A stretch of 64,000 nucleotides of DNA from Deferribacterales bacterium Deferri_01 (GTDB taxonomy: Bacteria; Chrysiogenota; Deferribacteres; Deferribacterales; Geovibrionaceae), in contig LUZY01000010.1 of the NCBI GenBank assembly GCA_001603805.1, forward strand, positions 1-64,000, in the 5' to 3' direction. Positions 15,123-27,742 of the stretch are shown here, in pieces. The notes under the pieces were generated by a model that saw only the letters and a list, made by a program, of their open reading frames with translations, was not told the DNA's origin and made no database searches. Position 1 is the first letter of the stretch. The number at the start of each line of letters is the position of its first letter. The translations under genes were made by a program, and so were the position numbers.

Positions 15123-15174
15123 ATTAGCCGATACGCATAAAAGCGCAACAGAAGCAGGCGATAATTACAGCGCC

Positions 15175-15263
15175 AAACCGCACATCCTGTCGGTTTGACA
15201 CACACGCTCGCGCCGCAATCAATGCGGCTTCGCTTCGCACGGCGCACTCCCATCCTGGGAGTG
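15175..15263 (+). repeat. Three-hairpin element, cheR copy 1
   Basis: Left hairpin AAACCG/CGGTTT with loop containing CATCCTG (15175-15196), joiner with CACGCTCGCG, middle hairpin GCCGCA/TGCGGC (15212-15228), joiner TTCGCTTCGCACGGCG, right hairpin CACTCC-CATCCTG-GGAGTG (15245-15263). The 5-prime leader CTTAATAACG found in other copies is degenerate here. Confidence 0.85.
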
Positions 15264-15317
15264 TTAGGATATCAACCTTATTTCAGGTAGACTATGCCGC
15301 CACCGAAATTCTTCGGT

Positions 15318-15418
15318 CTTAATAACGCCAAACCGCACGTCCTGTCGGTTTGACGTACACGCTCGCGCCGCAATCAATGCGGCTTCGCTTCGCACGGCGC
15401 ACTCCCATCCTGGGAGTG
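15318..15418 (+). repeat. Three-hairpin element, cheR copy 2
   Basis: Same structure as copy 1 with the full 5-prime leader CTTAATAACG (15318-15327). Left loop reads CACGTCCTG. Confidence 0.9.
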
Positions 15419-15472
15419 TTAGGATATCAACCTTATTTCAGGTAGGCTATGCCGCCACCGAAATTCTTCGGT

Positions 15473-15573
15473 CTTAATAACGCCAAACCGCACGTCCTGT
15501 CGGTTTGACGTACACGCTCGCGCCGCAATCAATGCGGCTTCGCTTCGCACGGCGCACTCCCATCCTGGGAGTG
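15473..15573 (+). repeat. Three-hairpin element, cheR copy 3
   Basis: Same as copy 2. It ends 14 nt beyond the true cheR stop codon, running antisense to cheR. Confidence 0.9.
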
Positions 15574-15587
15574 TTAGGATATCAACC

Positions 15588-16418
15588 TTATTTCAGGTAG
15601 ACTATGCCGCCACCGAAATTCTTCATTTGGAATTTTTCGCTTATTTTATTCAAAGTCTCAGAGTGACCAAGGAAAAGATAACCCGGATCATTTAGAGCCT
15701 TGTGGAAAGTTTCTATAACTTTCTTTTTAGCTTCCATATCAAAATATATCAGCACGTTACGGCAGAAGATAATATCCGCCTTACCGAACTTGGAAGCCAC
15801 CAGCGGATTCAGCAGGTTGCCCTGAAAAAACCTCACCTGAGAGGCTATTGCAGGATCAAGCTTAAAAGAAAAGCCGTCTTTAGTGAAATACTTATCCACA
15901 ATCTGCTGCGGTACCCCTCTGAAAGACACGCTGCGGTATACACCCTGTTTCGCCGTTTCCAGCACTTCGGTGTTAATATCTGAAGCGTATATCTCAATAT
16001 TCATCCTGTTCAGAAGCCCTGCCTCATTCAGCAGTATAGCCATTGAGTAGGCTTCCTCTCCGGAGGAGCTGGCGGAAGACCATATCTTGATACTTCTCTT
16101 GCCCTTCGCCTGAAGTTCAGGGATTACTGTTTTAATCATGTAATCCATCTGCGCTCTTTCACGAAGGAAATAAGTTTCGTTAATTGTCACAAGATTAAGG
16201 AGAATCTCCATCTCCTCTTTCTTCTTTATATTGTACTTGAGATAGTAAATATAATCCTTGAAGCTGTTGAAGTTCAGTTCCTGAAGCCTTTTCGTCAGCC
16301 TGTTCTCCAGAAGATACTTTTTGCTGTCGGAAAAAGATATAGCGGAACTGTTATAGATGATATCCTTTAACTCAACAAACTCGTCATCTTTTATTTTTAT
16401 CGTTCCGAGCTGAATCAT
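15588..16418 (-). CDS. cheR: Chemotaxis protein methyltransferase CheR
   Basis: SAM-dependent methyltransferase that methylates glutamates of chemoreceptors. 276 aa. N-terminal helical CheR_N domain (about 1-75), then the Rossmann domain with the SAM-binding block IKIWSSASSSGEEAYSMA, and FCRNVLIYFD. The last 12 codons, FGGGIVYLK and stop, are part of the downstream 155-bp repeat and are duplicated twice outside the gene. Start overlaps the STAS/HEAT gene stop by 4 nt. CheB lies farther up the same strand at 27743. Confidence 0.96.
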   Translation of the reverse strand: MIQLGTIKIKDDEFVELKDIIYNSSAISFSDSKKYLLENRLTKRLQELNFNSFKDYIYYLKYNIKKKEEMEILLNLVTINETYFLRERAQMDYMIKTVIPELQAKGKRSIKIWSSASSSGEEAYSMAILLNEAGLLNRMNIEIYASDINTEVLETAKQGVYRSVSFRGVPQQIVDKYFTKDGFSFKLDPAIASQVRFFQGNLLNPLVASKFGKADIIFCRNVLIYFDMEAKKKVIETFHKALNDPGYLFLGHSETLNKISEKFQMKNFGGGIVYLK

Positions 16419-17833
16419 AACACTTCCAGTATATTCTGAATCTTTTCACGCACATATTTGTTGTCCTCAGCGGTAATCCTGCTGCGGAGAACATCCTTGT
16501 AGCCTTCCGGTTTTATGGTATCGAGAATTTCAACTGCCTTAAAACGCACAAGCCAGCTTTCATCACTGCCAACAAGTTTTTCTGCTGTGGCAGCAGCAGC
16601 GTCCGGCTTGATCTTCATCAAAGCACCGAGAACCTCTTTACGCACATCCTCATTGTCGTCCTTAACAAGCCCCTGCAAAAAAGGAGAAGAGTCATACTTT
16701 ATTTTGCCGAGAGCTTCAATTATAGCCAGACGTACATTTTCCTCAACTGCGGCATACGCCTCAATGAGCCTTTCCGCACTGACTTCACTGTGCATTTCGC
16801 CCAGAGCCTTCACTGCAAAATAACCTACCCAGCTGTCTTTATCTGTAATACGCTTAAGGATTTCCTCGACCTTATCCTTTGCTTTGATTCTGACGAGACC
16901 GCCCGCAGATGCCTCACGCACCTTGATCGACTCATCATCAAAACCGGCAAGAAGAATATCTGCCACACCGGGCTTGTTAAAACCGGCAAGACTTTTCACT
17001 GTGAACGCACGCACATCCTCATTCTTTTCCTTTTTGAGATGTTCAAGGAGAATAGAATAGCTCTGTGAATCGTTTATAAGAGATAAAGCCTGCGCAGCAA
17101 CAATTCTAAGGCGTGGTGAATCTGACTTGAGGAGAATACCTATTTTATCTGCATCGGAATCATCAGCCAAAAGAGCGATTGAGCCCGCAGCGGCTTCAGC
17201 AACATCGCTGACTGAGCTTTTGAGGAACTCATAAAGCCGATCCCTGACGGACACTTCCCCGAACCAGCCGAGAACCAGAATAGCCGCCCTGACAACCGAA
17301 CCTGAATCGCTGTCCAGACACTCTTTTATCTTAGCAGTGGCATCATAGTCATGTGCTTTGCCTATGGTAAGCACTGCATATTCCTTCAGCAGCGGATCAT
17401 CCATGGCAAGAGCGTCATAAAGTCTTGCTTTTATATCATCCGTGTAGTTTTCTGCTATAAAGTCGGAAACCCTGTCAGCCTCTTCGGGGTCAAAAAACTT
17501 TTCCAGAAGCTCATCAGCAGTAAAAGAAGTGTAGTCCTGTGAAATAGTGAACAGCGGCAGCAGATTTGTCATTTCAAAAAGCTGATGCACTTCCTCGCTC
17601 ACGTTTACAAGCAGAAGCTCTGCCTTATTTTTCTGAATCTCTTTTTTAAACGCAAGGATTGTCGCCAGAGATTTGCTCTGCAGGAAAAGACAGTTTTTAA
17701 GATCGAGAATAACCTTGTAAACTCCGCTTTCGCTCCTTACAGCAGCCAGACCTTCATTGAGTCCTTCAACATGATTTTCTGCGCCAATGACGACACGGAG
17801 AGTGTCTTTATTTCTGGTGAGTTCAACGCTCAT
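16415..17833 (-). CDS. STAS-HEAT repeat fusion protein
   Basis: 472 aa. Residues 1-110 form a STAS-like domain (VILDLKNCLFLQSKSLATILAFKKEI, though the usual phosphorylatable Ser position is ambiguous). Residues about 115-472 are a series of some ten HEAT-type helical repeats, e.g. LARLRI-like DSPRLRIVAAQALSLI and DDNEDVRKEVLGAL. It probably serves as a protein scaffold. It sits between a free STAS protein and cheR with 3- and 4-nt junctions, so it likely takes part in the same partner-switching signalling unit. Confidence 0.75.
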   Translation of the reverse strand: MSVELTRNKDTLRVVIGAENHVEGLNEGLAAVRSESGVYKVILDLKNCLFLQSKSLATILAFKKEIQKNKAELLLVNVSEEVHQLFEMTNLLPLFTISQDYTSFTADELLEKFFDPEEADRVSDFIAENYTDDIKARLYDALAMDDPLLKEYAVLTIGKAHDYDATAKIKECLDSDSGSVVRAAILVLGWFGEVSVRDRLYEFLKSSVSDVAEAAAGSIALLADDSDADKIGILLKSDSPRLRIVAAQALSLINDSQSYSILLEHLKKEKNEDVRAFTVKSLAGFNKPGVADILLAGFDDESIKVREASAGGLVRIKAKDKVEEILKRITDKDSWVGYFAVKALGEMHSEVSAERLIEAYAAVEENVRLAIIEALGKIKYDSSPFLQGLVKDDNEDVRKEVLGALMKIKPDAAAATAEKLVGSDESWLVRFKAVEILDTIKPEGYKDVLRSRITAEDNKYVREKIQNILEVL

Positions 17834-17836
17834 TTT

Positions 17837-18157
17837 TTACCCCAGCGCCTGCGCCTCTGTTTCATAAATTTTAAAAACCTTATCAAGACCGGTGAATGCG
17901 AACATTTCTCTGATGTCTGAAGACATTTCGCAGAGACCGAGTTCTTTTTTCATTTTATTCGCATTTTTAAGCAAATCTATGATCTCCCTGAGACCGGAAC
18001 TGTTCATATATACAACGCCTTTAAATGAAAGGACTGCCGCATTGTGAGATGCGAACATATCAAGCACTTTTTTCTTAAGCTCCCCGCCTGTCTGGGCATT
18101 TACTTCGCCCTTGATGTAAACTACCTGCTTCCCGTTTTTACCCTGAACGTCGAACAT
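17837..18157 (-). CDS. STAS-domain anti-sigma factor antagonist
   Basis: 106-aa stand-alone STAS protein of the SpoIIAA/RsbV class. GVVYMNSSGLREIIDLLK contains the conserved Ser-Ser-Gly-Leu motif where an anti-sigma kinase phosphorylates and a SpoIIE-type phosphatase dephosphorylates. The phosphatase gene is 9 nt upstream; no kinase gene of the RsbW type is adjacent. Confidence 0.9.
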   Translation of the reverse strand: MFDVQGKNGKQVVYIKGEVNAQTGGELKKKVLDMFASHNAAVLSFKGVVYMNSSGLREIIDLLKNANKMKKELGLCEMSSDIREMFAFTGLDKVFKIYETEAQALG

Positions 18158-18166
18158 GGCTGCCTC

Positions 18167-19741
18167 CTAAATCTTTTTGAATGCCAGTATGGTTATATCG
18201 TCCTCGAACGGTATTCCGTCGGCGAAGAGCTTCACATCATCCATAATGTTTCTAATCATCTCGCTCACGGGCAGTTCGCTGAACATCATTATTTTTGAAA
18301 TCAGCCTGTCATAGCCGTACTGATCCCTTTGCCCATTCATTGCTTCGTTCAGTCCGTCTGTGTACATGAAAACAATGTCGCCGGAATCCATCTCAAATTC
18401 GCCCTGATCATAGTCCACACTGTCAAAAGCACCGAGGAAAAGCCCCTGTGCTGTCACTTTGCGGACGAGCATCTCAGATTTGTCATAAAACAGCATAGGG
18501 TTATGCCCTGCGCTGGCGAAGTTGCATCTGCCGGACTTTGAGTCAAGCACCACATAAAACATAGTAACAAAGTCGTTTGTGTGTATATTATCGCAAAGGA
18601 TCTCGTTCACCATCGCAAGCGCTTCGGAAGAAGCCACTATGTCATAGGTATAAGATCTCATTATTGCTCTTGTTATAGCCATTATAACAGATGCGGGGAT
18701 TCCGTGCCCGGAAACATCGGCAACACCCAGACCCCAGTATCCGTTGCTCATCTCTATGCAGTCATAGTAGTCGCCGCCGGCATGCTCCGCAGGAGTGTAA
18801 AAAGCGCCGAAGTCATAGTCAGTTATCTTAGGCAGAGTTTCGGGAAGAAGGCTTGCCTGAATTTCCCCCACCTGCCTTAATTCCTCATCAATTATCCTCT
18901 GCGCTTCCTTCAGCCTTTCGTTCATCCGGAGAAGGTCCTTGTTAAGCAGAGACATCTGCCTCTGTTTTTCCTCAAGGACAGCCTGCTGGCTTTTTATCTC
19001 GTCGATGAGCTTAAGCTCTTTGGTTGTGTCCCTTATACTTTCAACAATATACTGATCAAAACGGTTAAAGTTTACCGTAAGCTTTTTGCCGAATGCTTCC
19101 CTGAAAGAGCGTGTAACTTTTTTATCAAGCATAGGGCAGTCTTTACACTGTTCCTTATAACCATACATTTCATAGCATTTTTCCGGTCTGATGTCAGAGC
19201 CGCTCTGTTTTGACATCTCAATCAGATTCTGGTTGGCGATATTTACCGAGAAATCAGGGTTCACCACCATAACCCCCTCGTTGAGTGAGTTGACAGTATT
19301 CATTATGAACTTATGTTCCTTCTCGGTTTCTTTTCTCCGCAGATTCAGGATAACATTGGATGCCTTAAGTTCTTTTGTATGGTGGGTGAGCTTATCTATA
19401 AGCTTCTTTGTGCTTGTGATGTCATCCATTATTTCCGCATACATTCCGTCGGAAAGCTTTTGGAATTTTGAAGAATACAGTTTGCGGAAACCTCTATGAG
19501 TGATGGTGTCATGCTCAATATCAACAGCCATCTTCCCGTTCTTCAGCATCTCAAGCTGGCAGTTGGGGCAGGGTTCCAGTCTGTTGAATATGACAAGGTG
19601 GCATTTCTTGCCCATCAGTCTGTCAGATGTCTTCCCTGTGAGGTTTTTCATAGGGGTACTGCAAAACTGTATCTCGTACCTGTCATTTACTACCATGACT
19701 ATTTCGTTCATGTAGTTGAGAATTTCCTGGTTAAACTCCAT
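18167..19741 (-). CDS. PAS-containing SpoIIE/RsbU-type PP2C phosphatase
   Basis: 524 aa. Two PAS-like sensor domains (about 5-110 and 145-255), a coiled-coil linker (about 255-305), then a PP2C/SpoIIE phosphatase domain with the metal motifs GGDYYDCIE, GVADVSGHGIPA and VFMYTDGLNEA. Each PAS carries a Cys cluster: C..PCPNC in the first and CYEMYGYKEQCKDCP in the second, suggesting metal or redox sensing. It probably dephosphorylates the STAS protein encoded just downstream. No membrane segment is seen. Confidence 0.88.
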   Translation of the reverse strand: MEFNQEILNYMNEIVMVVNDRYEIQFCSTPMKNLTGKTSDRLMGKKCHLVIFNRLEPCPNCQLEMLKNGKMAVDIEHDTITHRGFRKLYSSKFQKLSDGMYAEIMDDITSTKKLIDKLTHHTKELKASNVILNLRRKETEKEHKFIMNTVNSLNEGVMVVNPDFSVNIANQNLIEMSKQSGSDIRPEKCYEMYGYKEQCKDCPMLDKKVTRSFREAFGKKLTVNFNRFDQYIVESIRDTTKELKLIDEIKSQQAVLEEKQRQMSLLNKDLLRMNERLKEAQRIIDEELRQVGEIQASLLPETLPKITDYDFGAFYTPAEHAGGDYYDCIEMSNGYWGLGVADVSGHGIPASVIMAITRAIMRSYTYDIVASSEALAMVNEILCDNIHTNDFVTMFYVVLDSKSGRCNFASAGHNPMLFYDKSEMLVRKVTAQGLFLGAFDSVDYDQGEFEMDSGDIVFMYTDGLNEAMNGQRDQYGYDRLISKIMMFSELPVSEMIRNIMDDVKLFADGIPFEDDITILAFKKI

Positions 19742-19944
19742 CTATTCCAGCCGTTATTTTTTTATTTTCCGCATAAAATACCGCAGACAGTTAGCCTGAT
19801 TATAATATAATGCTCCTTCAAAGTTAACAAATAATACCACTCTTATCAGGAATTTTCAGGTTTTTCACTGCCCAGCGCTAATCTCAGCGTAATTATTGTT
19901 ATAACAAAATTCAGTATCATTAGAAACAGTTAAGGTCATTAAAC
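19742..19944 (-). other. Intergenic region upstream of the phosphatase operon
   Basis: 203 AT-rich nt between the membrane-anchored unknown and the SpoIIE-type phosphatase. It probably holds the promoter of the phosphatase-STAS-HEAT-cheR operon, but I see no convincing -35/-10, sigma-28 or sigma-54 match. Confidence 0.4.
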
Positions 19945-20916
19945 CTAATCGTTCATCATGATCAGGAAAAAAACGCTGAAAAAAGCTATTATGGCAAGTG
20001 ATATATAAAGCAGCTTCCACGCTATCTTCTGAGCCCTTTCCATAAGAGTAACTTTATATTCATCAACGTTGCTTTCCATCCCTTCAAGATATTCAAGATC
20101 CAGCTCCACCTGCTCACGGCTGCGCTTCATCTCGTCTTCCGATTCGTACTCAACGACTGCGCCTATATAGATAAGCAGATACTGCAGCAGAGAGAACAGT
20201 CTTGTTTTTACATCGGTAAATTTATCAGTAAACTTAAAGACTGAGACTTTAAGCACTTCCGGGAGAATATCATGCTGAATTTTCTTGAACTTCTCCCTGA
20301 TCTCAGGGGTTATATTGTTGATATCCTCAAGGAGATCTATCTCATCCAGAATACCTCGTGCAAGCTTGGTGTATTTCTCAGTGACCATTGTCACTTTACT
20401 TGTGGGCACAGTAACAGAACCTCTTTCGGTCTGTCTGGCTTTAAGATAATTTTTCAGGACTGTGTAACCGCTGGGAACACCTTTTGATTTTCTTTTTTTC
20501 TGGTGCTTGTACTTTTTCTTTTTTTCCAGGGCATTTATGGTTTCCATTATATCGGTGGGGGTGAATATATAATGGTCACGGCCATCCAGAACCTCTTTCT
20601 CTTTCTTTTCAAGAGAGCCGTTGGTAAAGAAGAAAAGTTTAATAACATTCTCTTCATTCATGGTACGAAGAACGTCTGTGCTTATATATGGGTCAAGTTC
20701 TTTTTCCCCTTCAACAATCTCGAGCCATACAAGGGCATTATCATTTTCATCCTTTGATGACCGCCATATCTCAATACGGCGTTTCCCCTGTCCGTCAAAA
20801 ACAGATCTGTGTACAGCAAAGTGAAAGTCGTGAAGGATTTCCGTTATCAGCTCATAAAAATTCTTCAGGCTGATATTGTAAAAATCCTCATACCTTATGC
20901 CGTCATTTTCGTTCAT
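19945..20916 (-). CDS. Membrane-anchored protein with nuclease-fold-like N-terminus
   Basis: 323 aa, no named family recognised. Residues 10-130 have the alternating pattern of restriction-endonuclease-like (Mrr-type) domains, with NALVWLEIVEGEK followed by VIKLFFFTNGSL, but a clear D-ExK catalytic set is not evident, so it may be inactive. A basic Lys-rich linker (about 132-146) and helical middle lead to a C-terminal membrane segment (about 299-320). Start overlaps the OmpA-family gene by 14 nt, placing it in the cheA-side operon. Confidence 0.5.
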   Translation of the reverse strand: MNENDGIRYEDFYNISLKNFYELITEILHDFHFAVHRSVFDGQGKRRIEIWRSSKDENDNALVWLEIVEGEKELDPYISTDVLRTMNEENVIKLFFFTNGSLEKKEKEVLDGRDHYIFTPTDIMETINALEKKKKYKHQKKRKSKGVPSGYTVLKNYLKARQTERGSVTVPTSKVTMVTEKYTKLARGILDEIDLLEDINNITPEIREKFKKIQHDILPEVLKVSVFKFTDKFTDVKTRLFSLLQYLLIYIGAVVEYESEDEMKRSREQVELDLEYLEGMESNVDEYKVTLMERAQKIAWKLLYISLAIIAFFSVFFLIMMND

Positions 20917-21625
20917 AAAGATCCGCTCTCCTGTTCATGGGCTGCCCGTTCTTTGTATTTTCCGCAGCAGGCATAAGAGTCCCCATCCCCTGCGCTGCTA
21001 TATTAACTGAAGATATACCGTTTTGCTCCAGAATCGTTTTCAGATAATCCGCTCTTTTTCGGGCAAGGTCGAAGTTGGTGTCAAAGCGGTCATTCTCCAT
21101 AACACGAAGAGTATCCGTATGCCCCAGAATAAGGTACTCTCCTGAGTCCCGCAGTGAGGCTATCTTTGTACCAAGCTGCGCCGGCACCTCAGCATGAAAT
21201 TCACCAATATCAAAATAGAGCGTGCCTATATAAGTATAATTATCATCTGCAAGAAGAGCCGGTGAACCGTCAGGAAGATCTGAATTCTGTGAGGCAGCAT
21301 TTTTCGCATCTGACTGCATATTAGCCGCTTTAGCCGGAGAATTGCCTGTATAGCGGAATTTATGACCGGAGTAATCCGGTTCGGTAAGTTCTTTTTCCTC
21401 TATCCTTATAAGCTTCCACCCGTTGAGAACGATCTGGCTTCTTGCCTCATCAATATCCTCTGCTCTGACGTGCATTGTGGTCACAGCAGAACTCCCCTCA
21501 CGGGTGATGTGGATAAGAAAAAGCTTTCGCCCGTCTGCGGATGCTTTTTCAACGCCACCAGATAAAACGGATATAATTAGAATCGGCAGGAGGAGTCTGA
21601 TAAAGAAGCGGACGGTAGTTTGCAT
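20903..21625 (-). CDS. OmpA-family peptidoglycan-binding outer-membrane protein
   Basis: About 240 aa from the ATG at 21625. Residues 1-30 form a signal peptide (MQTTVRFFIRLLLPILIISV...EKASA). The C-terminus (about 130-240) is an OmpA-like domain: YFDIGEFHAEV, ILGHTDTLR, LARKRADYLKTIL and the closing NRRADL are recognisable. A TTG at 21685 would add 20 residues ahead of the signal peptide and is unlikely. It overlaps the preceding gene by 77 nt. Function in envelope anchoring is inferred. Confidence 0.8.
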   Translation of the reverse strand: MQTTVRFFIRLLLPILIISVLSGGVEKASADGRKLFLIHITREGSSAVTTMHVRAEDIDEARSQIVLNGWKLIRIEEKELTEPDYSGHKFRYTGNSPAKAANMQSDAKNAASQNSDLPDGSPALLADDNYTYIGTLYFDIGEFHAEVPAQLGTKIASLRDSGEYLILGHTDTLRVMENDRFDTNFDLARKRADYLKTILEQNGISSVNIAAQGMGTLMPAAENTKNGQPMNRRADLYERK

Positions 21626-21875
21626 TCCCAAGTCTGTTTTCCTCCAGAGCTTTATTGAAATCTTTTCCGGGATATTTCTGAACAATTTTTAGATTTTTGA
21701 TTATATCGCTTCCGCCGTTATGAAACAGAAAAGCTTTCGGACCGAGCATGGAGGCGGTCTGAAAGCGGCGGCTTACGGTTGTAACCTCGTAGACATACAC
21801 AGCGGAAAGCGCCTCTCCCGTAAAAAGGAGAAGCGCTGTAAAACTAATTAGCAGTTTTCTGAGCAAGCAGCTCAT
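21549..21875 (-). CDS. Small exported hypothetical protein after cheA
   Basis: About 108 aa from the ATG at 21875, which lies inside the 3-prime end of cheA. Residues 1-21 look like a signal peptide (LRKLLISFTALLLFTGEALSA). The mature part is not recognised; it contains KNLKIVQKYPGKDFN and ends IRFIWWR. Long overlap with the OmpA-family start is unusual, so either this end or the OmpA start may be misjudged. Probably an envelope protein paired with the OmpA protein. Confidence 0.55.
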   Translation of the reverse strand: MSCLLRKLLISFTALLLFTGEALSAVYVYEVTTVSRRFQTASMLGPKAFLFHNGGSDIIKNLKIVQKYPGKDFNKALEENRLGNANYRPLLYQTPPADSNYIRFIWWR

Positions 21876-23946
21876 CGATCTTATCAAGCATTGTCTGCAG
21901 GTTCAGAGGTTTAAGCAGGAAAGCGTTTATGCCGGCGGCACTCACCTTCTTTCTGTCCGTAACTTCGGATCTGCCCGAAACTGCAATTATAGGTTTTTCA
22001 TAGCCCCTTTCCCTTATCATTTTGGAAAGGTCATACCCGTCAAGATCCGGCATCATAATATCAGTAACGATGATGTCGGGGTCATTACTCTCAAGATATT
22101 TAAGCGCATCCCTTCCTGCTGAGACTTCATCAACATTTATCCATCCTGTTGAGGAAAGAAGGCGGTTCATTATTTTTCTGTCCGTTGCGGAGTCATCCAC
22201 AACAAGCACATTTACACTGTTGGCGTTTTTCTTAACTGCGCCCGCTTTCTTTTTTTTGCGTGAGCGTCTGGGCATTTTACCGGCTATATCGATAACACCT
22301 GCAACATCAATGATGAGTCTGACACGTCCGTCGCCCATGATTGTCGCTCCGGCTATGCCGACATTGCCGCCGAGGTATTCGCCGAGGGATTTGATAACAA
22401 TCTCTTCCTGTCCGACGAGCTTATCGACAATAAATCCGAGCTTTTTCTCTGCAAGTCCAACGACAACAACATAGATATCGTCTTTGTATGAACCCTCAAG
22501 TTCGTATATTTCATCCAGACGGAGAAGGCTGAGAACTGAGTCTCTGAGTTTAAGAACTTCTCTTCCCTCGAAATTATGTACTTCGCTGAGGTTGATACGC
22601 ACTGTTTCCACAACAGAGACAAGAGGTATCGCAAAAATTTCGCCGGAAACATCCACAAGCAGAGCCTGAATAATAGCAAGCGTAAGGGGAAGTTTGAGGC
22701 GGAATCGTGTACCGTGTCCGAGTTCAGATTCTATATTTATGATACCGTTAAGTTTTTCGATGTTTGTTTTAACAACGTCCATACCCACGCCGCGTCCGGA
22801 GATGCTTGTAATTTTCTCTGCGGTGGAGAAGCCGGGTTTGAAAATAAGGTTGAATGCACCTTCATTATCAAGATTTTTAGCTTCTTCAGGAGTTATGACG
22901 CCTTTTTCGACTGCTTTCTTTTTAAGTTTTGCAGCGTCCATACCATTACCGTCATCCCTGATCTCAACCACAATGTGGTTTCCTTCATGATATGCGGAAA
23001 GATGTACGGTTCCTTTAACAGGTTTACCTGCTTTTCTTCTTTCTTCAGGGCTTTCAACACCATGATCCACTGCGTTTCGGATCATGTGTATAAGCGGGTC
23101 GCCTATCTCTTCCACGACAGATTTATCAAGCTCTGTTTCTTCACCGGTTATAACAAGCTCGATCTCCTTATTTTTCTCTCTGGAGAGGTCACGCACCATA
23201 CGGGGAAATTTATTGAAAACTTTGCCGATGGGAACCATTCTTGTTTTCATCACAGCAAGCTGAAGCTCTGTGGTAATAAGCCCAATCTGTGAAGTGGTTT
23301 CCATAAGCTGTTCTATGAGGAATTCGCCTTCAAATTTCTTTTCAAGCTCGCCTGAAATCTGTCCTATTCTGTTTCTGCTCAGAACAAGCTCTCCCACAAG
23401 GTTCATCAGAGAGTCAAGCCTTGAGACATCCACACGTATAGTCTGTTCTATGGACATTGCGGCTTTTTTCACCTGATTCACATCATTATCAGCACGTTTG
23501 CCTGAAGGAGCCGGTGTGGATGAGCTTCCAGCAGAATCACCGTCTATCTGATCGAAGTTGCCTTCATTTGCAAGCTTAAGCTTTTTAACAGTTTCATCTA
23601 TTTTCACAGTGTCCTTGCCGGCTTTGATATCAGCAAGTATATGTTTGGTTACATCCACAAACTCAAGCAGTATATCCATAATAACTGCATTAACCTGCAT
23701 CTCGTTTTTACGGAGTTTATTGAGAATTTCCTCGGCATGGTGAGTAAGATTCGCCATTTTATCAAAGCCAAGGAAAGAGGAGGCACCTTTCATTGTATGT
23801 GCAGCACGGAAAATCTTGTTCAGCAGTTCAAGATCATTCTTGCTGTTTTCCAGTTCCACAAGGTCGTGGTCAAGGCTTTCTATAATTTCATCTGTTTCGA
23901 GAATAAAATCCTGTACAAGATCCTGCATGTCGCCGATGCCGTCCAT
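21844..23946 (-). CDS. cheA: Chemotaxis histidine kinase CheA with fused receiver domain
   Basis: 700 aa. Domains in order: HPt P1 with phospho-His50 (AAHTMKGASSFL); a linker of roughly 60 residues where the CheY-binding P2 domain normally lies but none is visible; P3 dimerisation helices (from about 165); P4 kinase (HMIRNAVDHGVE, DDGNGMD, GRGVGMDVV); P5 CheW-like coupling domain; and a C-terminal receiver domain (from about 575, VNVLVVDDSATDRK, phospho-Asp in IIVTDIMMPDLDG). Good GGAGG before the start. A sigma-28-like promoter lies upstream. Confidence 0.96.
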   Translation of the reverse strand: MDGIGDMQDLVQDFILETDEIIESLDHDLVELENSKNDLELLNKIFRAAHTMKGASSFLGFDKMANLTHHAEEILNKLRKNEMQVNAVIMDILLEFVDVTKHILADIKAGKDTVKIDETVKKLKLANEGNFDQIDGDSAGSSSTPAPSGKRADNDVNQVKKAAMSIEQTIRVDVSRLDSLMNLVGELVLSRNRIGQISGELEKKFEGEFLIEQLMETTSQIGLITTELQLAVMKTRMVPIGKVFNKFPRMVRDLSREKNKEIELVITGEETELDKSVVEEIGDPLIHMIRNAVDHGVESPEERRKAGKPVKGTVHLSAYHEGNHIVVEIRDDGNGMDAAKLKKKAVEKGVITPEEAKNLDNEGAFNLIFKPGFSTAEKITSISGRGVGMDVVKTNIEKLNGIINIESELGHGTRFRLKLPLTLAIIQALLVDVSGEIFAIPLVSVVETVRINLSEVHNFEGREVLKLRDSVLSLLRLDEIYELEGSYKDDIYVVVVGLAEKKLGFIVDKLVGQEEIVIKSLGEYLGGNVGIAGATIMGDGRVRLIIDVAGVIDIAGKMPRRSRKKKKAGAVKKNANSVNVLVVDDSATDRKIMNRLLSSTGWINVDEVSAGRDALKYLESNDPDIIVTDIMMPDLDGYDLSKMIRERGYEKPIIAVSGRSEVTDRKKVSAAGINAFLLKPLNLQTMLDKIDELLAQKTAN

Positions 23947-24024
23947 ATAGGGACCTCCTTAACAAAAGTATCGCCGTTTAATTTTAATGAACGGCTCTGT
24001 AATTTATTCCGCTTTCTGTTCACT

Positions 24025-24051
24025 TTTGCGGCAATTGTGTCTGAAAGTTAA
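24025..24051 (-). promoter_or_regulatory. Candidate sigma-28 (FliA) promoter for cheA
   Basis: Minus strand: TTAACTTT, 11 nt, GCCGCAAA (consensus TAAAGTTT-N11-GCCGATAA, six of eight matches in each half), about 80 nt upstream of the cheA start. FliA itself is encoded in this cluster. Confidence 0.45.
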
Positions 24052-24104
24052 GATAGCGGATGTCTGAATAACTTCAAGACAATTTAAAGTATAATTTAGC
24101 TGTC

Positions 24105-24204
24105 CTTATAACTGCAAATTCATCATCCTGAGAATTTGACATACACGCTCGCGCCTTGCAAAGCAAGGCTTCGCTACGCACGGCGGCAGTACATCCTGTA
24201 CTGC
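24105..24204 (+). repeat. Three-hairpin element downstream of cheZ
   Basis: Leader CTTATAAC, left hairpin AAATTC/GAATTT with CATCCTG loop (24116-24137), joiner TACACGCTCGC, middle hairpin GCCTTGC-AAA-GCAAGGC (24153-24169), joiner TTCGCTACGCACGGCG, right hairpin GCAGTA-CATCCTG-TACTGC (24186-24204). It ends 4 nt before the cheZ stop codon, antisense to cheZ, as a single copy. Confidence 0.88.
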
Positions 24205-24208
24205 TGTT

Positions 24209-24841
24209 CTATATACCGAACTCTTTGAGTAACTCGTCAACAAGGTTCTGGTTTTCCATTATACCGTCTTTTGTTTTGAGTTTCTCTAAAGTTTCAACGT
24301 CAATCTTTCTATCTTTAACCCCAAGCATAAGCACGAGGTGCGTAAGTCTTTCCTGAAGGTCGTATATGATTTTTATCAGTTTATCAATTTTCTGCTTGGT
24401 AATATCCTGAAATTCGAGGGAGGCAATAATATCAAAGCTGACATCCTGACCTGCCGTGCCTTTGTCACGCAGGCGGTCAAGAATACCGTTTATTTTGCTG
24501 AACTCGCCGTTCTCTACATACGTCCGCAGAGTGCCGAGATTCTCTTTTATGTCGTCAATATTGAAATTGATTTTATCCACACACTCAAGAACGTTCTCGG
24601 ACGCTTCCTTCGAGTCCCCGATGACACTGTGAAGAACGCTCTCAAAACCGGGCAGATCTTCATACGCATCTTCAACCGCAGAGCTTACAGTCTTAAGCTT
24701 ATTTACTGCTTTGCTGAAATATTCTGCAATGTGAAAGAGTTCACTCTCAGGATTGACATCAATACCTACGACATCATAGTTTCCGTTACTGATGTTTCTT
24801 GCAATATCAAGAAGCTCATTAACGTCCTTGAAATTGTTCAT
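24209..24841 (-). CDS. cheZ: Chemotaxis phosphatase CheZ
   Basis: About 210 aa, largely helical. The catalytic block FQDITKQKI matches the CheZ signature FQDLTGQVI, with the Asp and the Gln four residues later both present. The C-terminal NQNLVDELLKEFGI resembles the CheY-binding tail (Q-x-x-V-D-x-L-L). It dephosphorylates CheY-P. The ATG at 24841 is chosen; a GTG at 24847 overlaps the cheY stop. It directly follows cheY. Confidence 0.92.
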   Translation of the reverse strand: MNNFKDVNELLDIARNISNGNYDVVGIDVNPESELFHIAEYFSKAVNKLKTVSSAVEDAYEDLPGFESVLHSVIGDSKEASENVLECVDKINFNIDDIKENLGTLRTYVENGEFSKINGILDRLRDKGTAGQDVSFDIIASLEFQDITKQKIDKLIKIIYDLQERLTHLVLMLGVKDRKIDVETLEKLKTKDGIMENQNLVDELLKEFGI

Positions 24842-24843
24842 AA

Positions 24844-25221
24844 TCACAGACCCAGAAGTTTGTCTATCTTCTCTTTAAGCGTATCAGGGGTAAAAGGTTT
24901 TACCACATAGTTGTTTACACCGCTTCTGAGTGCGGTGAGAATGTCTTCCTTGGCAGCCTCTGTCGTTACCATAAGAATAGGCATAGTTTTGTACTCATCC
25001 TTGGATCTGAGAGTTTTAACAAAAGTAAGCCCGTCCATTTCCGGCATGTTCCAGTCGGTAATAACAACATCAACCTTGTTTTTTGCCATGACATCAAGAG
25101 CTTCCACACCGTTACCAGCCTCAAGGATGTTTGTGAAGCCGAGCTTGAGAAGAGTATTTTTAATTATTCTTCTCATAGTGGAAGAGTCGTCCACTGTTAT
25201 TACAACGTGATGATGAGCCAT
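24844..25221 (-). CDS. cheY: Chemotaxis response regulator CheY
   Basis: 125-aa single receiver domain. VDDSSTMRRI gives the acidic pocket, phospho-Asp is in VVITDWNMPEMDG, followed by the switch Thr in MVTTEAA and Lys in VVKPF. Likely binds the FliM N-terminus when phosphorylated. Its own strong promoter appears to lie at 25252-25281. Confidence 0.96.
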   Translation of the reverse strand: MAHHHVVITVDDSSTMRRIIKNTLLKLGFTNILEAGNGVEALDVMAKNKVDVVITDWNMPEMDGLTFVKTLRSKDEYKTMPILMVTTEAAKEDILTALRSGVNNYVVKPFTPDTLKEKIDKLLGL

Positions 25222-25251
25222 TCAATCCTCCGCCTGAGATGTCATAATATC

Positions 25252-25281
25252 ATATTATTTATATTATAACACCAATGTCAA
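25252..25281 (-). promoter_or_regulatory. Candidate sigma-70 promoter for cheY-cheZ
   Basis: Minus strand TTGACA (plus 25276-25281) and TAATAT (plus 25252-25257), 18-nt spacing, about 30 nt before the cheY start and overlapping the fliN stop. Confidence 0.55.
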
Positions 25282-26207
25282 TCCTTTAATTTCTTCAATC
25301 TCTCTGCCCTGCTTACGATTTCCTTAATGCGAAAACCGAAGTAGCCATCGACGATAACCACCTCTCCGCGGGCTATAACCTTATTGTTTACAACAAGTTC
25401 AACAGGTTCATCCGCAGATTCGTCAAGCTCTACAATGTTTCCTGATCCCATAGTAAGTATATCCTTTAAAAACATCCTTGTTGAGCCCATTTTCACACTG
25501 ACCGGAACATCTATGTCCATCAGCATGTCCATGTTCTGCCCGCCGGAGACGGAACCGCCTCCCATAGAGCTTATGGGATCATTCATTGCATCATCAGGAT
25601 CATCAGGAAAAGTAAAAGCAGTTGCAAAATCTGGTTCTTCATCAGAAGCGGATCCTGCCCCGCCGGAACTTTTACCCGAAAACATGGACAGCAGATCCTC
25701 ATCCATAAAAAAGCGCATAGCTGTTTTACGGTCACCGATTGTAAATTTCATATCGGCTATAAAATAACTTTCTGACTGAAAAAGAGCCGAATTTTCATTT
25801 TTAAGCACATCATCAACTTTGAAGCTGACTTTTTTGCCAAGCCTCTCATCAATCGGTACGGTAAGAGAAGACAAAACCTGCTGACAAAGTTCCTTTATTG
25901 CATCAGGATCATCTTCACCAAGCTCTTCAGTACCCTCGGAATCCATCATGAGCATGAGAGCGGCAAGCATGGTTATATCTTTGGTGTAGAAGAACAATCC
26001 GGCATCAAAACCTGATTTCTCCTCTGTAATGGAGACCGCCGTCTGGGACTCATAACCGTACATAAGCTCATCCGCCCCGCCGGAATAGGCATCAGACAGA
26101 GAAATACTTATTTCCTTATCAAACATGCTGCCGAAGGTTGAGGCAAACATGTCCGTTACAACTCCTGTAAAAGCGGCGTATTTGCCTTTATCCAGATCTT
26201 TCCTCAT
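25278..26207 (-). CDS. fliN: Flagellar switch protein FliN/FliY with N-terminal CheC-like domain
   Basis: 309 aa, far longer than plain FliN. The C-terminal about 85 residues are the SpoA (FliN) domain of the C-ring (DIDVPVSVKMGSTRMFLKDIL, ELVVNNKVIARGEVVIVDG). The N-terminal about 190 residues resemble the CheC/FliY domain, but the active helix reads KELCQQVLSS, with Gln/Cys where the catalytic Asn of E-x-x-N is expected, so phosphatase activity is doubtful. An acidic Ser/Gly-rich linker joins them. Start lies 20 nt inside fliM. Confidence 0.88.
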   Translation of the reverse strand: MRKDLDKGKYAAFTGVVTDMFASTFGSMFDKEISISLSDAYSGGADELMYGYESQTAVSITEEKSGFDAGLFFYTKDITMLAALMLMMDSEGTEELGEDDPDAIKELCQQVLSSLTVPIDERLGKKVSFKVDDVLKNENSALFQSESYFIADMKFTIGDRKTAMRFFMDEDLLSMFSGKSSGGAGSASDEEPDFATAFTFPDDPDDAMNDPISSMGGGSVSGGQNMDMLMDIDVPVSVKMGSTRMFLKDILTMGSGNIVELDESADEPVELVVNNKVIARGEVVIVDGYFGFRIKEIVSRAERLKKLKD

Positions 26208-27198
26208 TAACTTCTTCCGTGATCATTTCATTTATTCTCACAGCCTTACGCACGCCTAACGTACCTATATGACCGAAAAATTTCTTTTTGTTGTTGATAA
26301 ATATACCAGCAGGAGTGCCCGCCTTAACATCCATCATAACCAGATCGCCTTCCTGAAGATTCATTATCTCTTCAATGGTAAGAGTGGTATGCCCAAGGGA
26401 TGCACGCAGAGGAATCTTAATCTCTTCAAGCATATCAAGAATATGCTTTTCATTATCCCCGAACTTGCCTTTCTTGGCGCCTATCAGCCAGTCCTGGCTG
26501 CTGATCTTGCCGAGAACAGGTTCAAGAACAATGGCAGGGATACAGAGGTTCATCATCCCCGTCGCCTCACCGAACTTGATCTCGAAAACCACAAGGATAA
26601 CAACCTCGTTCTGTGCAACAATCTGAATAATATGCGGGCTGTTCTCACTCAGCTCTTTCTTAAAGCGGATATTCTGCACAATCTGCCGCCAGACATCTTC
26701 AAGATCTTTGAGTATCAGGCTTAATATACCCTCTATTATGTGCTGCTCAAGGCTCGTAAGCTCACGGGTTTGAAACAGCGGCTGTCCCGGACCGCCCAGA
26801 AGCTTGTCAACTATGGGAAAAACAAGTGACGGGTTTATCTCCAACACCGCATTTCCTTCCATAGGTATCATACTTATAATGTTAAAGCTGGTAGGGTCTG
26901 GGAGAGACATAAGGAACTCTCCGTATGTCATCTGATCCACACTAACCAGAGTTATGTCTGTGATGGTACGCAGAAAGTTTGAAAGCGAGGATGAAAAGTT
27001 GCGCGCAAACTTATCATGAAGATTTCGGATAGAACGAAGCTGCTCTTTTGATACCCTGTCCGGTCTGCGGAAATCGTAAACCGAAATCTTTTTAGGCACA
27101 AAGTCAAGCTGCTGTATCGAATTATCCGATAAATCGTCCTCCGTGGATACGGTGGACAACAGCGCATCAATCTCTTCCTGACTTAAAATATCTGCCAT
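26188..27198 (-). CDS. fliM: Flagellar motor switch protein FliM
   Basis: 336-aa C-ring protein. It begins MADILSQEEIDALLS, the N-terminal CheY-P-binding segment, followed by the CheC-like middle domain (from about 45, RPDRVSKEQLRSIRNLHDKFARN) and a C-terminal SpoA domain (LRASLGHTTLTIEEIMNLQEGDLV). The first 44 nt are repeated twice upstream, each copy followed by a three-hairpin element. GGAGTAATAGG upstream of the true ATG can serve as binding site and comes right after the stop of the upstream mini-ORF. Confidence 0.96.
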   Translation of the reverse strand: MADILSQEEIDALLSTVSTEDDLSDNSIQQLDFVPKKISVYDFRRPDRVSKEQLRSIRNLHDKFARNFSSSLSNFLRTITDITLVSVDQMTYGEFLMSLPDPTSFNIISMIPMEGNAVLEINPSLVFPIVDKLLGGPGQPLFQTRELTSLEQHIIEGILSLILKDLEDVWRQIVQNIRFKKELSENSPHIIQIVAQNEVVILVVFEIKFGEATGMMNLCIPAIVLEPVLGKISSQDWLIGAKKGKFGDNEKHILDMLEEIKIPLRASLGHTTLTIEEIMNLQEGDLVMMDVKAGTPAGIFINNKKKFFGHIGTLGVRKAVRINEMITEEVNEERSG

Positions 27199-27201
27199 AT
27201 A

Positions 27202-27393
27202 TTAACCTATTACTCCGTTTATGCCTGTAATGTTGTCCACAGATGTTCCCACGGATGGGAACACGCCGTGCGAAGCGAAACCGCATTCTATGCGGTGCGA
27301 GCGTGTACGGGAAAAAGACAGAGATGTACTTTTTTCCGTTATTAAGTCAGACAACAGCGCATCAATCTCTTCCTGACTTAAAATATCTGCCAT
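27202..27393 (-). CDS. Mini-ORF with FliM N-terminal CheY-binding segment (copy A)
   Basis: 63 codons. Residues 1-15 are identical to FliM (MADILSQEEIDALLS); the rest is translation of the inserted three-hairpin element and flank (ending NITGINGVIG). Its stop is 3 nt before the fliM ATG, and its start has the same upstream leader as fliM, so it may be translated by re-initiation. Whether a stable peptide is made is unknown; the non-FliM part looks like read-through of structured DNA. Confidence 0.35.
   Translation of the reverse strand: MADILSQEEIDALLSDLITEKSTSLSFSRTRSHRIECGFASHGVFPSVGTSVDNITGINGVIG
27244..27346 (-). repeat. Three-hairpin element, fliM copy A
   Basis: Minus-strand order: leader CTTAATAACG (plus 27337-27346), A/T-rich left hairpin (27307-27339) with CATCTCTG loop and one mismatch, joiner TACACGCTCGC, middle hairpin ACCGCA/TGCGGT (27280-27296), joiner TTCGCTTCGCACGGCG, right hairpin TGTTCCC-ATCCGT-GGGAACA (27244-27263). 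Confidence 0.88.
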
Positions 27394-27396
27394 ATA

Positions 27397-27588
27397 TTAA
27401 CCTATTACTCCGTTTATGCCTGTAATGTTGTCCACAGATGTTCCCACGGATGGGAACACGCCGTGCGAAGCGAAACCGCATTCTATGCGGTGCGAGCGTG
27501 TACGGAAAAAAGACAGAGATGTACTTTTTTCCGTTATTAAGTCAGACAACAGCGCATCAATCTCTTCCTGACTTAAAATATCTGCCAT
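27397..27588 (-). CDS. Mini-ORF with FliM N-terminal CheY-binding segment (copy B)
   Basis: 63 codons, identical to copy A except Phe for Ser at residue 28. Its ATG is preceded by AAAGGTAGCAA, a leader different from that of fliM and copy A, and AGG is suitably placed as a binding site. This may be the original translation start region of fliM. It is the first reading frame after cheB on this strand. Confidence 0.35.
   Translation of the reverse strand: MADILSQEEIDALLSDLITEKSTSLSFFRTRSHRIECGFASHGVFPSVGTSVDNITGINGVIG
27439..27541 (-). repeat. Three-hairpin element, fliM copy B
   Basis: As copy A, but the left hairpin stem is a perfect 11-bp pairing (ACGGAAAAAAG/CTTTTTTCCGT), suggesting this is the less mutated copy. 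Confidence 0.88.
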
Positions 27589-27624
27589 TTGCTACCTTTT
27601 GTCATTTATTAAAGGTCTATTTAC

Positions 27625-27667
27625 GTGAAAGACCCCTTTTTAGGCAAAAAGTGTTCTTTCACACTTT
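27625..27667 (-). other. Alternative hairpins between cheB and fliM
   Basis: GTGAAAGA (27625-27632) pairs with TCTTTCAC (27655-27662), enclosing a second helix CTTTTT/AAAAAG (27636-27641, 27646-27651). The overlapping pair AAAGTGT (27648-27654) and ACACTTT (27661-27667) forms a terminator-like hairpin followed by T on the minus strand. The two folds exclude each other. Confidence 0.5.
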
Positions 27668-27742
27668 CTCCCCAAAACCCCAATTGCTCCGCAGAAAAGA
27701 AATTCTTTTCAGAAGAATTAATACGGGGTTTAAGCTCCCTGT

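Follow-up and report, generated by a model that had tools for sequence, protein, structure and literature searches.

A mobile three-hairpin element with paired GGANG loops and long target duplications in genomes of the Deferribacterales

The window analysed here, a 64,000-nucleotide stretch of contig LUZY01000010.1 from a Deferribacterales bacterium, carries beside its motility genes a short sequence of three hairpins whose stems differ from locus to locus and yet stay paired. An earlier note on this DNA described the arrangement as a dispersed element and concluded from the covarying stems that the folded form matters. This raises the questions of what kind of element it is, how it reached these sites and what its hairpins might bind.

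Copies in the window and anatomy of the element

Covariance matches place all six copies within a few bases of the positions originally assigned to them; the title of the earlier note spoke of five, while the three sequence types that it distinguished are indeed present. The features are as follows.

15160..15263, + strand: element copy 1 of the cheR array (covariance match 15159-15271), with its GGANG loops on the - strand
15315..15418, + strand: element copy 2 of the cheR array (covariance match 15314-15426; folding)
15470..15573, + strand: element copy 3 of the cheR array (covariance match 15469-15581)
15264..15314, 15419-15469 and 15574-15624: host flank after each cheR copy, holding the cheR end and stop codon
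24101..24204, + strand: single element copy (covariance match 24100-24212; folding)
27155..27198, - strand: 44-nt target duplication (ATGGCAG...GTTGTC, the first codons of fliM), in the intact gene
27199..27243, also 27394-27438, - strand: 45-nt extra sequence that separates hairpin 3 from the duplication
27244..27349, - strand: element copy nearer the intact fliM (covariance match 27236-27350)
27439..27544, - strand: element copy farther from the intact fliM (covariance match 27431-27545; folding)

The unit is 155 bp long in the cheR array, which has three, and 195 bp long in the fliM array, which has two; these lengths indicate that what is repeated is host DNA plus element. The host flank at 15574-15624 is the one joined to the intact cheR. 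Identical copies of the 44-nt fliM duplication lie at 27350-27393 and 27545-27588, and the 45-nt extra sequence equals today's region upstream of the fliM start. The single copy is located directly past the stop of the gene previously labelled cheZ (ORF 24209-24847, - strand), before cheA.

The element is about 103 bp long and holds its hairpins in fixed order. In the orientation used by the earlier note, it reads TGWCTTTATAA leader, hairpin 1, YACACGCTCGC, hairpin 2, TTCGCTWCGCACGGCG and hairpin 3, which bears out the order proposed there (hairpin 1, ACACGCTCGC, hairpin 2, TTCGCT(T/A)CGCACGGCG, hairpin 3). The leader said to be common to all copies fails in cheR copy 1, which has GATAATTACAG in place of CTTAATAAC. 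Hairpin 1 is composed of 10 bp, one bulged nucleotide, 3 bp and the loop CNTCC, hairpin 2 of 6 bp, and hairpin 3 of about 8 bp with the same CNTCC loop. As had been remarked, loops and joiners are conserved and the stems are variable yet paired; the present analysis adds that target duplications flank the element and that, on the other strand, each of the two terminal loops reads CANGGANG. In some copies (G002 L151:5437-5596 and L133:10595-10746; the G000 array L034:1800-2100), a hairpin or joiner contains an additional 20-50 bp, suggestive of nested insertions or of a longer element variant.

The covariation is confirmed. In 34 distinct copies, the number from which covariance model R1 was built, 24 of the 27 pairs show two-sided change, and the 250 doubly changed cells far exceed those in shuffles (77 +/- 7) or with a slid partner (43-82). 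Folding energies are low on both strands (z = -3.4 to -5.4), and in the predicted fold of the GGA strand the joiners pair mutually (CGCCGU with GCGAGCG), so that the middle hairpin would become longer. Mismatches among 1693 paired cells comprise 31 G.T and 27 A.C; since these are equally rare, neither strand has an RNA-type wobble bias, and selection on the stems as RNA only is unsupported by the wobble counts. DNA-level copying of palindromes could contribute to the covariation. Together with the apparent exchange of whole hairpins described below, the lack of a wobble bias weakens the step from covariation to a folded form that matters.

Distribution, insertion and turnover

The genome-wide covariance search that the earlier note had suggested returns 146 matches at E<=1 in the own genome (G000, 2.85 Mb), or about 145 copies in some 70 clusters, so the element is by no means confined to the window; these own-genome statistics rest on covariance matches plus individual sequence stretches. 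By covariance model, at least 150 copies are found in the complete genome of a congener (G002) and at least 62 in another (G001), two congeners being comparably rich in copies, and further families of the order harbour related versions. Matches were obtained in 22 of 60 relatives searched, all of the same order; by FliM, Seleniivibrio and Denitrovibrio are near relatives and Mucispirillum is farther. A sister version in the complete genome G023 numbers 109 copies, with other joiners and a different leader. Copies elsewhere lie beside genes for, among others, a histidine kinase, SCO1, PurH, ribosomal protein L20 and an OpuAC binding protein; the motility loci of the earlier note are an accident of the window, and a link to motility is not supported. 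The statement that no named family has this layout agrees with the lack of any Rfam match at gathering score in the window; at E<=10, nine element loci gave only three weak Rfam matches, all unrelated. An exact-pattern scan of GTDB contigs and IMG/VR, which possibly do not include the own and nearest genomes, produced no match, and literature searches found no description of the element.

Flanking direct repeats scoring >=15 accompany 20 of 105 clusters, as against 3 of 597 mispaired flank pairs, and some 18 of these 20 have the appearance of true target duplications, 28 to 91 bp in length. The 5' junction is precise, with target DNA often ending in pyrimidine plus C followed by the TGWCTT leader, and 0-45 extra nucleotides are present at the 3' junction. 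Comparison between genomes reveals both states of a site. At fliM, G003 has a single-copy target and no element (L135), and three congeners have one or two elements. The L041 site is empty in G000 and reads 29-bp duplication, element, duplication, element, duplication in G002, and at L099 both G000 and G002 have the element, with a 53-bp duplication, where G001 has an empty site. Around the 3' end of the gene labelled cheZ, G000, G001 and G002 have insertions at differing exact positions, and at L094 the insertions in G001 and G000 are independent. Element sites lie mostly at gene ends, where the duplication often leaves the gene intact; the differing and independent insertions at the same gene ends imply that end insertion is recurrent, or is selected since the duplication can spare the gene. 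In two copies (L116:3165-3278 and L134:10006-10120), the target duplication begins within the 3' arm of hairpin 3 (AGATGC and TGTGCC, respectively), and this 6 nt match between target and hairpin arm may represent microhomology used in insertion.

Arrays are tandem repeats of the element with flanking DNA, up to seven units long; in G002, they make up 37 of 73 clusters, with 2 to 7 units, each some 93 to 281 bp long. At fliM, the flanking repeats of any one genome are identical to each other but differ from those of other genomes, hence the arrays appear to be homogenised. Furthermore, the three hairpins are unassociated between loci (Mantel p 0.15, 0.22 and 0.82), and the full set of three stems does not recur in any pair of the 59 loci. 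When orthologous loci are compared, hairpin 1 can usually still be recognised, but hairpin 2 is of another type, as hairpin 3 often is too. To judge from these comparisons, the hairpins appear to behave as independent modules that are exchanged whole between copies, and the conserved joiners would plausibly serve as homology patches for the exchange. At the level of sequence comparison, insertion at new sites, target duplication, array growth and hairpin turnover are thus demonstrated, and mobility of the element is supported.

GGANG loops and the case for CsrA

GGA(N)G is the recognition core of CsrA/RsmA, and the repeats of CsrB read CAGGA(U/A/C)G, the base after GGA being variable there too. 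On the strand opposite to that described above, hairpins 1 and 3 both display a near-invariant GGANG loop (ACAGGATGT-like and CCANGGATGG-like). In the CsrA SELEX consensus, RUACARGGAUGU, the GGA likewise sits in a hairpin loop (PMC7652899). Among GGA-bearing apices, GGANG is found in 94 of 94 for hairpin 1 and 92 of 95 for hairpin 3, with varying adjacent stem letters, conservation that is partly ascertained among the matches of R1 because the loops belonged to that model. Copies found by the joiners alone control for the R1 bias within the genus; they have the loop motif in 38 of 43 (hairpin 1) and 35 of 43 cases (hairpin 3). In the G023 sister version, where the same caution applies to model R2, GGA is kept in 12 of 12 and 11 of 12 non-redundant copies at the two loops. 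In addition, csrA is present once in each of the 22 element-bearing genomes, a co-occurrence confounded by relatedness. The element therefore shares with CsrA/RsmA-binding RNAs a GGA(N)G in more than one hairpin loop and a host with csrA.

In 77 of 99 clusters (p 2e-8; simple ORF calls on individual sequence stretches), the gene on the hairpin-3 side has the GGANG strand as its sense strand. In G002, orientation also correlates with replichore (54 of 73 clusters), and it follows gene direction in all three clusters in which both flanking genes are on the lagging strand. Insertion guided by the replication strand was demoted as an account, since the 54/73 bias is confounded with gene direction and better explained by it, although only three clusters discriminate between the two.

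The most likely reading, moderately probable, is that of a non-autonomous mobile element dispersing paired CsrA-type hairpins into mRNA tails, with CsrA binding predicted from the loops. The element inserts beside genes, duplicating 28-91 bp of target, and read-through transcripts of the abutting gene would fold into hairpin 3 (GGANG), the extended middle hairpin and hairpin 1 (GGANG), both apices being putative CsrA sites. In this manner, mRNA tails and intergenic leaders could be seeded with paired sites for local control, and the roughly 145 copies could add up to a distributed CsrA sponge. A broader proposal, made tentatively, is that the family carries global-regulator binding hairpins as cargo and, by long-duplication hops, tandem growth and hairpin swaps, rewires the CsrA network throughout the order or buffers it, with no known transposase or reverse transcriptase. 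If CsrA does bind the loops, sites for an RNA-binding global regulator would here be spread by a transposable element, just as transposons spread transcription-factor sites, but at the post-transcriptional level. The element would then also be a candidate for a distributed CsrA sponge in a group other than Gammaproteobacteria; outside that class, according to PMC4333381, no dedicated CsrA sponge RNA had been identified at the time of that paper.

Several observations count against CsrA. Hairpin 2 has no GGA, the long invariant joiners are unexplained by CsrA, the G.T and A.C counts lack a wobble bias, and about a fifth of clusters, fliM included, are in reverse orientation. The two GGA motifs are 67-69 nt apart along the chain, slightly beyond the 10 to 63 nt spacing over which a CsrA dimer bridges two sites (PMC7652899), unless folding of the middle hairpin shortens the distance. 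Most ligands of the CsrA SELEX had stems of four or fewer contiguous pairs (PMC7652899); the terminal stems of the element are longer than these.

Some of the same observations favour purely selfish DNA, whose hairpins would be recognised in single-stranded form by a transposase or by replication or repair machinery, with the CATCC/GGATG loops as recognition site and the CsrA likeness due to chance. Absence of wobble bias on both strands, clear mobility, a leader and invariant joiners that CsrA does not need and the replichore correlation in 54 of 73 G002 clusters are all in keeping with this alternative. However, orientation tracks gene direction where it differs from replichore (3/3, few cases), no Y1 transposase is found in the own genome, G002 or G023, the CsrA core is matched by the loops of two separate hairpins, and the base that varies after GGA is the one that varies in CsrB repeats, hence we consider selfish DNA rather unlikely.

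Routes of movement and relation to known systems

The RAYT-type gene that the earlier note proposed to look for is not found in the own genome; RAYT/Y1 proteins (PF01797) are likewise absent from G001, G002, G003 and G023, and the same search was positive in five control genomes. A RAYT/REP origin was rejected for the lack of a Y1 transposase in these genomes. Reverse transcriptase (RVT_1, PF00078) is absent from G001, G002, G003 and G023, of which G002 and G023 are complete and rich in copies, and was rejected as the driver on that ground, although such a gene may once have been present and later lost. The own genome has a single reverse-transcriptase gene (G000:C3:114810-115451, L158), which has no counterpart at threshold in two congeners and is thus an unlikely partner. 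Target duplications of 28-91 bp in complete genomes with neither enzyme pose the question of how the element moves; lengths so large and variable are more in line with template switching during replication, or with nicks that are widely staggered and then filled in, than with a DDE or Y1 transposase.

Such duplications, with one precise and one variable end, would also fit a SINE-like retroelement, an RNA copy of which is inserted by target-primed reverse transcription. The missing RVT_1 protein in G001, G003 and the complete genomes G002 and G023 despite abundant copies, so that no reverse transcriptase acting in trans is seen there, and the lack of donor-identical pairs between loci make this improbable. 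Least probable of all are static structured 3' UTR elements, immobile processing or termination signals arising by local duplication, which would account for the location mostly beside gene 3' ends and the common tandem duplication, but conflict with the filled and empty sites and their duplications, which reveal insertion at new sites, and with the absence of a T-run after the terminal hairpins on either strand. On the GGA strand hairpin 1 is followed by ATTATAAAGACA and on the other strand hairpin 3 by variable host DNA, so the hairpins, read by eye and not by a terminator scan, are unlike intrinsic terminators.

The mobile CsrA-hairpin reading calls for comparison with established systems. 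CsrB, CsrC, RsmX, RsmY, RsmZ and CsrA/RsmA target hairpins resemble the element in the apical GGA(N)G, in several sites per RNA and in a csrA gene in the genome, whereas CsrB-type sponges are dedicated sRNA genes and the element is a dispersed insertion beside unrelated genes with no Rfam match. TwoAYGGAY (RF01731) and Bacillaceae-1 (RF01690), proposed on motif evidence as CsrA-binding RNAs outside Gammaproteobacteria in a section of PMC4333381, similarly have two GGA-loop hairpins each; neither gives a covariance match at the element loci even at E<=10, and mobility, a trait of the element, is not part of their description in that section. REP/REPIN sequences are likewise short, dispersed, palindromic extragenic repeats with more than 100 copies and some tandem arrays, yet the element has no RAYT, and it differs from them further in its long target duplications, in the set order of its three hairpins, and in variable stems with conserved loops and joiners in place of conserved stems. 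MITEs, too, are short non-coding mobile DNA able to fold, but the TGWCTTTATAA leader and the hairpin 3 end are not complementary, leaving the element without terminal inverted repeats, and its variable 28-91 bp duplications differ from the short, fixed-length ones of MITEs of DDE insertion sequences.

Other sequences accompany the copies. The first 15 codons of fliM occur three times (window 27155-27588), and the two upstream ghost starts keep their ATG and enter the element, so that short fliM-leader peptides might be made from them. Upstream of fliM (window 27600-27700), a second repeat type combines G/A-rich and T/C-rich tracts in an imperfect hairpin (GAAAGAACACTTTTTGCCTAAAAAGGGGTCTTTCAC); similar tracts (GAGAAACCCTTTTTTAACG...GGGTTTCTC) are also present in L116, L133, L134 and L151, and the repeat is possibly related to the intrastrand-triplex repeats of PMC4666352. 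The target duplications of G023 are not cleanly readable, its flanks holding another dispersed repeat. A dispersed repeat of the type GTCATTGCGAAC...GAAGCAATCTC or GTCATACTGAGCCTGAAAGGCGAAGTATCT often adjoins elements in the congeners (L178 in G001; L147 and L151 in G002), and almost always does so in G023 (L201, L211 and L218).
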